A DNA stretch of 21,299 nucleotides from a virus. The notes under the pieces were generated by a model that was not told the origin of the DNA, did no database searches, and saw nothing but the letters and a program-made list of their open reading frames with translations. Shown in pieces: positions 1,271-16,680 of the stretch. The stretch is taken from positions 1 through 21,299 of the IMG/VR virus record IMGVR_UViG_3300017769_000158. The stretch is one strand, 5' to 3'. The first letter of the stretch is position 1; each line of letters begins with the position of its first letter. The position numbers and the translations under genes were made by a program.

Positions 1271-1558
1271 ATGACAGAGAAAAAGCCCGATATGCTTATT
1301 GGTTTAGACGGAATAAAACGAAAACCAAAAGATGAGGAGAACTTAAATGCTTTGTTTTACGCCTTGTTCAATACACCCGGTGGTGCTGAAGTTCTTAAAC
1401 ATCTTAAAGCCTTAACACTAGAGGCAGTAGCTGGTCCTGAAATATCAGACCAACACCTACGTCATCTAGAGGGACAAAGATATTTAGTAGGATTAATACA
1501 AAGAAGACACAACAAAGGCGCAAGCCAAAATATAATTAAGGAGACTAATAATGAGTGA
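1271..1558 (+). CDS. Small Bbp19-like phage protein
   Basis: This 95-residue soluble protein lies between portal and scaffold. A central segment has the pattern 'LFNTPGGAEVLKHLK...HLRHLEGQRYLVGLIQRR', which resembles the small Bbp19 family found beside portal genes in podoviruses; the TPxGxxVL and EGQR elements are the basis of the call. Bbp19 has been seen as a virion-associated protein in Bordetella phage BPP-1, but its job is not known. The start is supported by AGGAG at 1261-1265, five bases before the ATG. The stop overlaps the scaffold start by 8 bases (ATGAGTGA), so the two are probably translationally coupled. There is no signal peptide or membrane segment. The family assignment is from memory of the motif and is moderate; that the gene is real is near certain. 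Confidence 0.7.
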   Translation: MTEKKPDMLIGLDGIKRKPKDEENLNALFYALFNTPGGAEVLKHLKALTLEAVAGPEISDQHLRHLEGQRYLVGLIQRRHNKGASQNIIKETNNE

Positions 1559-2342
1559 AGAACAAGCAGTAGAACAACAAGCAGAGCCTGTACAAACACA
1601 GACTGATGAGGTTTCACGTGAAACACAATCAACACATATTTCAGCAAGACCAGAACATATACCAGAAAAATTTTGGAATGCTGAAACTGGAGAAACAAAT
1701 ATAGATGATTTAGCTAAGTCTTATAATAATCTTGAAAAGTTTTCTACAGGCAAGAAAGATGAAATGAGAGAATCTTTAATTGCTGAGATAACAGCTGAAG
1801 CGGCAGAGGGATTACCTGAAGATGGTAAAGGCTATAAGCTACCTCCATTAGTAGAGGGTTTAACAGAAGAAATGGTAGAAGATAACCCACTAACAGGATG
1901 GTGGAGAGAGAAATGTCATTCTATGGGATTAGATCAAGATAATTTTGAAGATGGTATTAATCAATATATTGCTTTTGCACAAGGACAAATGCCAGATACT
2001 CAAAAAGAAATAGAAAATCTAGGAGAAAATGCACAAGAAAGGATTGAAGCAGCAAATAACTGGGCTAGTACAGTACTTAATCCAGAACAATTTGAAGTAT
2101 TGCAAGGAACTTTAGGCATGTCTGCTAAAGGAGTTGAGGTTATTGAGTCTTTAATGGAGGCAACTAAGCAGAATATATCAAGATCCGCTAGCGTTGCACA
2201 ACCAGAAAGAGAGTTAAGTATGGCTGATGTAAAAGAAATGATGAATGATAAAAGATATTATGATTCAAGACATAGAGATTTGTCCTATGTTAAAAAAGTA
2301 GATGATGCTTTTCAAAGATTACAATTATCTGGAAAACTATAA
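1551..2342 (+). CDS. Capsid assembly scaffolding protein
   Basis: This acidic, largely helical 263-residue protein sits directly before the coat region, the standard place for the scaffold that guides procapsid assembly and leaves before maturation. Visible marks are a Gln/Glu-rich disordered N-terminus (about residues 1-30), the podovirus scaffold motif RPEHIPEKFWN near residue 33 followed by a 'DDLAKSYNNLEKF' helix, and a long acidic middle. The end is a more basic segment (MMNDKRYYDSRHRDLSYVKKVDDAF) that could be the coat-binding element known from scaffolds in general. The length is close to T7 gp9 (about 300 aa). A strong AAGGAG at 1538-1543, seven bases before the ATG, fits a protein made in many copies. 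The stop abuts the next start without a spacer. Confidence 0.88.
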   Translation: MSEEQAVEQQAEPVQTQTDEVSRETQSTHISARPEHIPEKFWNAETGETNIDDLAKSYNNLEKFSTGKKDEMRESLIAEITAEAAEGLPEDGKGYKLPPLVEGLTEEMVEDNPLTGWWREKCHSMGLDQDNFEDGINQYIAFAQGQMPDTQKEIENLGENAQERIEAANNWASTVLNPEQFEVLQGTLGMSAKGVEVIESLMEATKQNISRSASVAQPERELSMADVKEMMNDKRYYDSRHRDLSYVKKVDDAFQRLQLSGKL

Positions 2343-2870
2343 ATGCTCTACGTGGAGAAAGGTACTCCAGCTCATGCATTTGAATTAGCTTTTAAGTTAA
2401 AGCAGTCTGATAAATATGAGCTAGCAATCATGGGACATGATCCATTAACGGCTCTTACTAATGTATTTAGATACAGTAGAAAGGGAATTAGAACCTATAC
2501 TGTCTTTGAAAAAGATAATGTATTAGCAATGTTTGGTGTAGTTTCAGAAGCAAAGAATGAAAAGAGAGGAGCTGTTTGGTTCCTTTCTACCGATTTTACT
2601 AACAAACAATGGACATATTTTTTAAAAAGGAATAAAAAGTGGACAGAATTTTTTTTATCTGACTATGAATTTGTGGCTAATCTAGTACCTTTAGAGAATA
2701 AAAACACAATAAGATGGTTAAAATGGCAAGGTTTTACTTTTGAATCTAGAGAAATACTTGTAAAAGGAGTTAAGTTATTGTATTTTTATAAGAAGATACG
2801 TAGTGTATCTAAAGATATACAGCCCGTTTTAGGGGATATCGGTCCAATATGGACAACCGATCTAAGCTAG
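2343..2870 (+). CDS. T7 gp13-like GNAT-fold internal virion protein
   Basis: This 175-residue protein has the pattern of T7 gp13, a protein of the GNAT (acetyltransferase) fold needed for a productive virion although not known to transfer acetyl groups. Shared landmarks in order are 'VLAMFGVV' (T7 'FPLAIGG'), 'AVWFLSTD' (T7 'CWFVTSD'), a basic helix with 'FLKRNKKWTEFFLSDY', 'VANLVPLENKNTIRWLKWQGF' (T7 'VWVGNTSHIRFLKTIGA') and a final 'LLYFYKK' strand. The start is the ATG directly after the scaffold stop, and no ribosome site is seen, so coupled translation is likely. It lies inside the head module between scaffold and coat, whereas T7 keeps gp13 after tail protein gp12. The last 14 codons overlap an inverted repeat. 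An enzymatic acetyltransferase cannot be excluded, but no clear acetyl-CoA loop is visible. Confidence 0.78.
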   Translation: MLYVEKGTPAHAFELAFKLKQSDKYELAIMGHDPLTALTNVFRYSRKGIRTYTVFEKDNVLAMFGVVSEAKNEKRGAVWFLSTDFTNKQWTYFLKRNKKWTEFFLSDYEFVANLVPLENKNTIRWLKWQGFTFESREILVKGVKLLYFYKKIRSVSKDIQPVLGDIGPIWTTDLS

Positions 2871-2881
2871 AAGTGGACAAC
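2838..2881 (+). promoter_or_regulatory. Inverted plus direct repeat ahead of the capsid gene
   Basis: ATCGGT at 2838-2843 is complementary to ACCGAT at 2856-2861, and CCA/TGG inside extends the hairpin around a small loop with a three-base bulge. The right arm overlaps TGGACAAC (2850-2857), and the same eight bases recur at 2874-2881. The element spans the end of the gp13-like gene and the 46-base gap before the capsid gene, the only gap of that size in the head module apart from the terminator. A role as a promoter, operator or mRNA-processing site for the most highly expressed gene is inference from position. Confidence 0.35.
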
Positions 2882-2904
2882 TGTTAGTTTAACAATTAAC
2901 AAAC

Positions 2905-2910
2905 TGGAGG
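2905..2910 (+). promoter_or_regulatory. Ribosome binding site of the major capsid gene
   Basis: TGGAGG lies six bases before the capsid ATG at 2917 and is one of the three clearest Shine-Dalgarno matches in the window. It fixes the capsid start and fits the high copy number of the product. Confidence 0.8.
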
Positions 2911-2916
2911 CTTAAT

Positions 2917-3741
2917 ATGGCTACGCAAATTACTAATGCGTTTATTAAGCAGTTTGAAGCCGAAGTCCACATGGCTTACCAAAGGATGGGTTCTAAACTG
3001 CGTAATACTGTGCGCCAATCAAATAATATTACAGGCAACCAAGCAAGATTCCAAAAGGTTGGGAAAGGTGCCGCGTCTACTAAATCTAGACACGGACAAG
3101 TCAACACAATGGAAGTTACACACTCAAACGTAGATGTTACATTAGCTGATTACTATGCTGCTGACTATGTCGATGCATTAGATCAACTAAAAACAAACAT
3201 TGACGAAAGACAAGTGTTGGCTACATCTGCTGCGGCTGCTTTAGGAAGAAAAATGGACTCATTGATTATTGATGTCCTTGACGCTGGATCTAACTCAGCA
3301 AACATTGTTCATGGATCAGCTGCTTTAACATTAGCTAAAGCACTAACTGTGTATGAAACGTTTGGTGAAGCTGATGTTCCAGATGATGGACAAAGATACT
3401 TCGTTGTGTCTTCTCAAGGCTGGGCTGATTTACTACAAATAGATCAATTCAGTAGAGCAGAATATGTGGGTGAAACAGACTTACCATATGCTGGCGGTAT
3501 GACTGCTAAGCGTTGGTTAGGTTTCTTATGGTTCAGCCACTCAGGACTGTCTAAATCTAGTACCACTAGAGATTGTCATGCTTACCACTCAAGTGCAGTA
3601 GGTTTGGCAACTGGTTCAGATGTAAGAACAGAAATTAACTATGTACCTGAAAAGGTCAGTAACTTGATTACGTCATACTTTAGTGCTGGAGCTGTCATGA
3701 TTGACAACGATGGCGCAATTGAATGTCAGATCACAGAATAA
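2917..3741 (+). CDS. Major capsid protein
   Basis: This 274-residue protein follows scaffold and the gp13-like gene, and is preceded by a strong ribosome site, as expected for the coat subunit. It begins 'MATQITNAFIKQFEAEVHMAYQRMGSKLRNTVR', a helical N-arm typical of short podovirus coats. A basic stretch rich in Lys, Gly and Ser follows (about residues 45-60), then 'VDVTLADYYAADYVDALDQLKTNID' and a helix with 'AALGRKMDSLIIDVL' that corresponds to the spine-helix region of HK97-fold coats. A C-terminal strand set holds 'TEINYVPEKVSNLITSYFSAGAVMID', where coats usually have their P-domain strands. It is clearly shorter than T7 gp10A (about 345 aa) and belongs to the compact coat group seen in marine podoviruses. 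The HK97 fold is inferred from family knowledge; the role is well supported by context. Confidence 0.9.
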   Translation: MATQITNAFIKQFEAEVHMAYQRMGSKLRNTVRQSNNITGNQARFQKVGKGAASTKSRHGQVNTMEVTHSNVDVTLADYYAADYVDALDQLKTNIDERQVLATSAAAALGRKMDSLIIDVLDAGSNSANIVHGSAALTLAKALTVYETFGEADVPDDGQRYFVVSSQGWADLLQIDQFSRAEYVGETDLPYAGGMTAKRWLGFLWFSHSGLSKSSTTRDCHAYHSSAVGLATGSDVRTEINYVPEKVSNLITSYFSAGAVMIDNDGAIECQITE

Positions 3742-14844: not shown

Positions 14845-16680
14845 ATGACAATAGTTAGTAGTAAAAATACACCGAGAATTGCTTATACAGCAACAGCAAA
14901 CCAACAAGCGTTTACAATACCGTTTGAGTTCTTTGCAGTAGCTGACGTAAAAGTATACAACGGCACAACATTACTTACTTATGACGCTAATGCAGATGCG
15001 GTAAATGAGTATTCGATTACAGGCACAGCTTCTGATAGCGATGAATCATATGAGTTTGGTGCTGGTGGTACAGTTAATATTGGAGCTACCGGTATTTCGG
15101 CTGGAGCTATTATCACAATTATTCGAGATATTGCTATAGAAAGAGCATCAGACTTTCCATCATCTGGATCGTTTGACATGAAATCTTTGAACACAGATTT
15201 AGATAAAGTTTATGCAAAATTAGCAGACTTAGATCAACATATAGATCGTTCAGTAAAACTTCTGGACACAGACTCAATATCTGCAACAACCAGTTTACCA
15301 GCAAAGGCGACCAGAGCATCTAAGGTGATGACCTTTGATAGCGATGGAAATGTAGCAACGACATTCACAGCAGTAGACACCAGCACAGTAGCTGGAATAG
15401 CAAGTGATGTTACGACTGTAGCTGGTATTTCCTCAAACGTTACAACCGTTGCCGGCATCTCGTCTAATGTTACATCTGTTGCCGGAGTTTCAGCTAACGT
15501 TACAACTGTTGCTGGTATCAGCTCGAATGTAACTACAGTAGCTGGGATATCATCTAACGTCACTAGCGTGGCTGGAATTGCAGCTAATGTAACTACAGTA
15601 GCTAATAACATATCTAGTGTTAATAACTTTGAAGCTATTTATAGAATTGGAACATCTGATCCTACATCTTCACTAGATGAGGGAGATTTATTTTATAACT
15701 CTACTGATAACAATTTAAAATTTTACAATGGATCTGCATGGACCAGTATTGATACAGGACTTACAGATATTGTAGGAGATGCTAGCCCACAATTAGGCGG
15801 CAATCTGGACGTGTTAGCCAGAGAAATTAATACCTCTACAACCAATGGCAATATTATACTTACGCCAAATGGGACAGGTATGCTTGAGGTTAAAGGTAAT
15901 ACTAATGCTGGTACTATACAGCTTAACTGTGAAGATAACTCGCATGGAATAAAAATTAAAGGACCACCACATTCGGCAGCACAATCTTATACATTGACTT
16001 TGCCATCAAGCATTACAAATAATTATTATTTAAAAACAGATGGTTCTGGAAACCTATCGTTTGCAGAAGTACCAACAGAAACTAAACCAACAGTAGCTGA
16101 TGTTAGCCAGACGATTGCACCAGCGAGTGCAACAACCATTAATATTACAGGTACAAATTTTGTAACTGTCCCTATTGTTGAATTTATAAAAACTGATGGA
16201 TCTATTACTAGACCAAACTCTGTTTCGTTTACTAATGCAACAACGTTATCTGTAAATGTAACGCTTGCAACTGGTGCTTATCATGTACGAATAGAAAATC
16301 CAGATGGTAACGCTGGACGTAGTACTAACAATATTATTACTGCAAGTACAGCACCAAGCTTTAGCACATCGGCTGGAAGTCTAGGGAGTGTAGCAGCTGG
16401 AGACTCTGTATCTATAGATGTAGATGGATCATCAGATTCAACAGTAGCGTTTAGTGAGACTACAAGCGTACTTACAAGCAATGCTAACACACCAGCGGCA
16501 ACAATGAATTTATCACTTAACAGCAGTACTGGAGTGATAAGCGGAACAGCTCCATCTCCAACAAGTGAGACAACATATAACTTTACATTACGATTAACAG
16601 ATGCAGAGAGTCAAACAGTAGATAGGGCATTTAGTATAACAATAAGTGTTGGCATGGCTAACTCAGGACAATTTAACTAA
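14845..16680 (+). CDS. Tail fiber with T7 gp17-type N-terminus, repeats and Ig-like domains
   Basis: Residues 1-140 match the N-terminal tail-attachment domain of T7 gp17: 'PRIAYTATANQQAFTIPFEFFAVADVKVYNG', then 'IIRDIAIERASDFPSSGSFDMKSLNTDLDKVYA', the region that docks on the tail. Residues 182-251 are seven 10-residue repeats (VAGISSNVT[TS]), likely part of a trimeric shaft. A 'SLDEGDLFYNSTDNNLKFYNGSAW' module follows near 270, common in marine phage fibers, then 'GDASPQLGGNLDV'. From about 413 to 500 lies an IPT/TIG-like Ig domain, and the end (about 503-605) resembles a putative-Ig (He_PIG) domain with 'SSTGVISGTAPSPTSETTYNFTLRLTDAESQTV'. The gp17 receptor tip is replaced. The protein ends in MANSGQFN, echoing the MANS start of the next gene. 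No strong ribosome site is seen. The stop overlaps the next start by one base. Confidence 0.9.
   Translation: MTIVSSKNTPRIAYTATANQQAFTIPFEFFAVADVKVYNGTTLLTYDANADAVNEYSITGTASDSDESYEFGAGGTVNIGATGISAGAIITIIRDIAIERASDFPSSGSFDMKSLNTDLDKVYAKLADLDQHIDRSVKLLDTDSISATTSLPAKATRASKVMTFDSDGNVATTFTAVDTSTVAGIASDVTTVAGISSNVTTVAGISSNVTSVAGVSANVTTVAGISSNVTTVAGISSNVTSVAGIAANVTTVANNISSVNNFEAIYRIGTSDPTSSLDEGDLFYNSTDNNLKFYNGSAWTSIDTGLTDIVGDASPQLGGNLDVLAREINTSTTNGNIILTPNGTGMLEVKGNTNAGTIQLNCEDNSHGIKIKGPPHSAAQSYTLTLPSSITNNYYLKTDGSGNLSFAEVPTETKPTVADVSQTIAPASATTINITGTNFVTVPIVEFIKTDGSITRPNSVSFTNATTLSVNVTLATGAYHVRIENPDGNAGRSTNNIITASTAPSFSTSAGSLGSVAAGDSVSIDVDGSSDSTVAFSETTSVLTSNANTPAATMNLSLNSSTGVISGTAPSPTSETTYNFTLRLTDAESQTVDRAFSITISVGMANSGQFN
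15388..15597 (+). repeat. Seven in-frame 30-base repeats encoding VAG-I-x-x-NVT units
   Basis: Seven consecutive 30-base units encode near-identical decapeptides: VAGIASDVTT, four units with VAGISSNVT, VAGVSANVTT and VAGIAANVTT, ending in a partial eighth unit (VANN). The DNA of the units is much less alike than the protein, since synonymous codons are varied from copy to copy: the GISSNVT block is written four different ways. The repeats probably form a regular coiled or beta-helical part of the trimeric fiber shaft. Confidence 0.9.

Follow-up and report, generated by a model that had tools for sequence, protein, structure and literature searches.

The decad array and its tail fibre gene

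The window analysed here (the whole stretch of DNA, 21,299 nt) is a virus record of 21.3 kb that contains a T7-like virion module. Its genes follow the order portal, scaffold, capsid, tail tubular proteins A and B, internal virion proteins and then fibre, with profile matches, in the same order, to Head-tail_con, Phage_T7_Capsid assembly, capsid, phrog_394, phrog_376 and phrog_342 ahead of the fibre. The fibre gene (Table 1) lies within the virion module and after the internal virion proteins, as T7-like (Autographiviridae-type) tail fibre genes do. In annotated phages, tblastn finds its relatives chiefly among Pelagibacter phage tail fibres, with some cyanophage and roseophage members. The phage that carries it is a T7-like, pelagiphage-type marine phage.

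Residues 1-180 of the fibre gave no match to the Pfam phage T7 tail fibre domain (PF03906), and the tail protein profile phrog_1640 matches the N-terminus (4.9e-08). A putative Ig domain, He_PIG, occupies residues 512-601 at the C-terminus. The genes that follow the fibre encode a Laminin_G_3 lectin-like domain and DUF7483. Residues 331-411 comprise an 81-residue module with a counterpart in the cyanophage P-SCSP1u fibre (E 8.6e-19), while the rest of the two fibres differs, which at the sequence level reads as modular exchange. In the related loci L010, L038, L041 and L074, other sequence stands in the place of this module.

Table 1 Features of the fibre locus. Positions are those of the window, except in the two L006 rows.
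Feature	Position	Strand	Basis or remark
Tail fibre gene, 611 aa	14845..16680	+	Immediately follows internal virion protein gene; PHROG tail-fibre matches; tblastn to pelagiphage 'tail fiber' genes
Antisense open frame, 125 aa	15234-15611	-	
Non-repetitive linker before array	15280..15387	+	
Shaft between conserved anchors FDSDG and YR, 104 aa	15334..15645	+	
Predicted continuous alpha helix, residues 178-265 (88 residues)	15376..15639	+	AF2 monomer, 28 homologues; pLDDT about 75-88
Seven decapeptide units, 30 nt each	15388..15597	+	In frame with fibre ORF
18-nt exact direct repeat AATGTAACTACAGTAGCT, copy 1	15526..15543	+	
18-nt exact direct repeat AATGTAACTACAGTAGCT, copy 2	15586..15603	+	60 nt downstream of copy 1
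Eighth, degenerate decad VANNISSVNN	15598..15627	+	Sequence; alignment
81-residue module, fibre residues 331-411	15835-16077		Match to P-SCSP1u fibre
He_PIG domain, fibre residues 512-601	16378-16647		
L006 fibre locus	1466-3298		
L006 array	about 2009-2248		

The seven units read, in order, VAGIASDVTT, VAGISSNVTT, VAGISSNVTS, VAGVSANVTT, VAGISSNVTT, VAGISSNVTS and VAGIAANVTT, and the degenerate eighth decad that ends the array is followed by an F..IYRI anchor. When the seven are compared in register, 168 of 210 residue pairs are identical. The array is also found in the DNA by TRF, at periods of 30 and 60 nt, the 60-nt period having the higher score. An earlier note on this DNA had reported seven near-identical 10-residue units; their place, frame and sequences are confirmed, and every codon that it gave for the four GISSNVT copies is correct. 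The open frame antisense to the array is probably a by-product of the repeated codons rather than a gene.

An AF2 monomer model built with 28 homologues predicts a single unbroken helix over the array. Prediction of the whole fibre with 12 sequences was unreliable in the array region (pLDDT <40, about 30), and the IcmE/DotG matches returned by a PDB search with the array alone were set aside as compositional only. Taken together, the predicted helix, the published layout of pelagiphage fibres (PMC3909814) and the P-SCSP1u fibre, which is trimeric (PMC10575957), suggest that the array likely serves as the rod (shaft) of the fibre, which would then be a helical trimer. The shaft repeat keeps a strict 10-residue period, corresponding to 3.33 residues per turn if helical. 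Decad runs in relatives reach up to 15 units, with hydrophobic positions 1, 4 and 7 or 8; the pattern used to search for arrays is itself partly responsible for the hydrophobic residues at 1 and 4 and for the alanine at position 5.

Codon identity between units

Codon identity between units in register is 0.292, compared to 0.392 ± 0.048 for random synonymous coding under the window codon table (P = 0.011) and 0.369 expected from the array's own codon frequencies (P = 0.048); the array was chosen post hoc for its scrambled look, and the P values carry no correction for that choice. Nucleotide identity between units, at 0.676 versus 0.697 ± 0.020, is not significantly low (P = 0.16) and so is statistically equal to the random expectation. 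Codon-table nulls drawn from the window, the fibre gene, the virion genes and the array itself were compared, together with uniform and permuted codons. Across these nulls codon identity is the sole statistic that comes out low, and the signal disappears on permutation, as codons permuted within the array give 0.296. Uniform random synonymous coding yields 0.269 and the lowest achievable value is 0.149. As the observed value is close to the former and well above the latter, the array resembles random coding rather than optimal avoidance, its codons being used a little more evenly than the codon table would predict. Between-unit pS is 0.742, versus 0.662 ± 0.053 for fully random synonymous coding (P = 0.048), and pN is 0.15.

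A register test rests on the premise that selection against repeat pairing would reduce identity for aligned codons alone. In this test the window array gave a codon identity of 0.325 in register and 0.313 off register, and in nine of the nine relatives examined the in-register value was near or above the off-register one. Codon dissimilarity confined to in-register positions was therefore not found, either by the register test or against the permutation null, and because neither shows a register effect, the small deficit in codon identity amounts to flatter codon use.

The longest exact direct repeat in the window array is 18 nt, where about 14 nt is expected; in L008, which is near-identical to the window, this repeat is broken by one synonymous base. 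We see no shortage of long exact direct repeats, in the window array or in 116 clusters of related arrays. A ceiling on exact repeat length had been considered as a sign of purging, with none longer than 26 nt in 199 metagenomic arrays. It was dropped, since the Pelagibacter phage HTVC131P has a repeat of 31 nt, other decads at the same loci share exact repeats of 29-33 nt, and units are seldom identical even at the protein level.

The earlier note also held that rare C- and G-ending codons, avoided elsewhere in the genome, appear in the array. They are indeed raised there (GC3 0.257 versus 0.155 expected for its amino acids, P = 0.018), but the adjacent non-repetitive linker shows an excess that is the same or larger (0.39 versus 0.17). 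Every close relative also has an elevated GC3 in its array, with 0.35-0.47 in L006 where 0.17-0.18 is expected. Over the 116 clusters the excess is only 0.009. No close source was found for the C/G-rich array DNA, the nearest phage arrays matching at 66-81%.

Arrays in related phages

Arrays with at least four decads were collected from IMG/VR loci, giving 199 arrays in 116 sequence clusters. Over the clusters, codon identity is 0.420 versus 0.374 expected (mean z +0.80 ± 0.12), with 16% of clusters above 2 and 1% below -2, and the longest exact repeat averages 12.9 nt versus 11.3 nt expected. The 14 clusters whose units are at least 70% alike have z 0.02 ± 0.31. The window array, at z -1.9, is the fifth lowest of 199, and its cluster ranks fifth of 116; this is a tail value, yet within what a set of 199 yields. 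All seven arrays of its clade lie at z -1.0 to -2.4.

Among annotated phage records, 15 loci were fetched (a few of them uncultured genomes), of which 13 have qualifying arrays, 19 arrays in total. Their average z is +1.27. Related arrays include exact inter-unit repeats of 20-31 nt, the 31-nt example being that of HTVC131P. In short, no anti-repeat signal, in the sense of inter-unit identity below synonymous expectation, is seen across the 116 clusters and the annotated phages, and homologous arrays are at or above random expectation.

Inheritance of the units and shaft length

Close relatives, with 89-100% protein identity, keep seven units with the same position-specific residues, including VTS in units 3 and 6 and, in all except L006, V in unit 4. 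Codons are also shared at orthologous units, mostly at 0.77-0.99 (0.51-0.61 for L006). Between the window and L002, L003, L005 and L007 the orthologous-unit identity is 0.79-0.87, whereas units within one phage share 0.29 of theirs. Codons specific to a given unit turn up again in metagenome contigs that are independent of one another. The units therefore diverged before the phages did, and the scramble is ancestral. Between phages, pS in the array is 0.15-0.27 (0.53 for L006) versus 0.24-0.52 in the N-terminal domain, and so synonymous change is not accelerated in the array.

The anchor-to-anchor shaft measures 104 aa in all nine distinct relatives with this architecture, among them L038 as well as L010 and L041, whose repeat sequences differ. 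The L006 array stands apart from its flanks, which match L002, L005 and L007 at 0.78-0.90. In L006, unit 5 corresponds in part to unit 4 of the other phages, and unit 4 is similar to unit 2; a segment is displaced by one unit (a 22-nt exact match on diagonal +30), and there are still seven units. The L006 array is thus a mosaic with an out-of-register segment and an unchanged copy number, which shows that recombination across registers occurs and that length is kept.

Origin of the scrambled codons

The scramble very probably reflects a fibre shaft that is ancient and constrained in length and whose synonymous sites are saturated. The decads would have been duplicated before this phage group diverged. 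Purifying selection on shaft structure and length would since have held the amino-acid pattern and the decad number, with synonymous positions left to drift until nearly saturated. Units would thus differ from each other and yet pass largely unchanged from phage to phage. Out-of-register recombination still occurs occasionally, as in L006, the survivors with the right length being those that we see. The part of the earlier note that described an old array kept at the protein level agrees well with the high between-unit pS, the low pN and the codons shared at orthologous units. A weak clade-specific push toward codon diversity may be superimposed, given the low z of the window array and its clade and a pS above random.

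A tentative possibility is that regionally flat codon use, with more C/G-ending codons, lowers inter-unit codon identity irrespective of repetition, possibly because a module was exchanged with a phage of different codon use, because codon selection is relaxed, or because translation is slowed to aid folding of the fibre. The raised GC3 of the linker and of the arrays of all close relatives fits this, as do the linkers of most clade members, where codon identity for the same amino acid is low (0.24-0.31 versus 0.36-0.39 expected). However, the window linker itself is not low (0.41 versus 0.37), the GC3 excess nearly vanishes over the 116 clusters, and no donor with this DNA was found. Such codon use complements drift in an ancient shaft and does not replace it.

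It is unlikely that the scramble is neutral but the shaft unusual, forming a coiled coil at 3.33 residues per turn over its whole length, as the predicted helix and the decad period might suggest. Coiled-coil periodicity is assumed to go no lower than this value, 10/3, which also marks the greatest strain that has been observed in a continuous coiled coil (PMC4786415). If true, fibres of a type widespread in marine phages would consist of continuous stammers, or else the rod would adopt another fibre fold.

We regard as very improbable the proposal of the earlier note that selection against inter-unit DNA similarity, which would counter slippage or recombinational shrinkage, actively diversified the codons. 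The deficit in codon identity under the window table, the uniformly low z of the seven clade arrays and the constant copy number speak for it. However, the clade shares inherited codons and so comes close to one observation, the observed codon identity is twice the achievable minimum, and the family as a whole lies above expectation. There is also no register-specific avoidance, and the window array holds a longer exact repeat than expected, from which the near-identical L008 differs by one disrupting base. Nucleotide identity statistically equal to random and relatives at or above expectation are the two outcomes that the earlier note had set as refuting the proposal, which is unsupported. 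Recent tandem duplication plus assembly or sequencing noise has next to no chance of being correct: TRF does call a tandem array, but most differences between units are synonymous, and separate metagenome contigs carry the same codons unit by unit.

Attributing the scramble to drift in an ancient, length-constrained shaft thus does away with an appealing claim of active codon scrambling that lacks support. It also offers a yardstick: units of marine phage fibre arrays are on average slightly more codon-alike than random coding, which is what old duplications followed by drift would give. Finally, a copy number that stays constant over substantial divergence, even through an out-of-register exchange, points to selection on shaft length, which may be the cause of that constancy.

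Comparison with known systems

Little literature on codon diversification in tandem repeats was found. One report describes how, in Mycobacterium tuberculosis, codons are chosen according to context in a way that avoids nucleotide repeats (PMC2430213). This is the same kind of selection as had been proposed for the fibre, with synonymous choice preventing repeats; as described there, it concerns frameshift-prone nucleotide repeats and was shown against a null model, whereas the corresponding test on the fibre arrays was negative.

The cyanophage P-SCSP1u fibre gp28 (PDB 8i4m) has in common with the window fibre the 81-residue module noted above, and it gave no significant match to the decad array. 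T7 gp17 (PMC3909814) resembles the window fibre in having an N-terminal virion-binding part, a repetitive rod and C-terminal domains, and its gene likewise comes after an internal virion protein gene. The window fibre differs from it in an N-terminus on which PF03906 scores nothing, in decads rather than heptads, and in its C-terminal Ig-like He_PIG domain. In an earlier description of pelagiphage fibres (PMC3909814), the N-terminus is T7-like and leads into a repetitive stretch. The window fibre is also like the T7-like fibres of pelagiphages and cyanophages (Autographiviridae, such as HTVC021P, HTVC105P, HTVC131P and S-TIP37). These occupy the same place after the internal virion protein gene, and their genes, annotated as tail fibre, contain decad arrays of the same VTTVAG type, but with other array lengths and unit orders, and several of them have codon identity above random.
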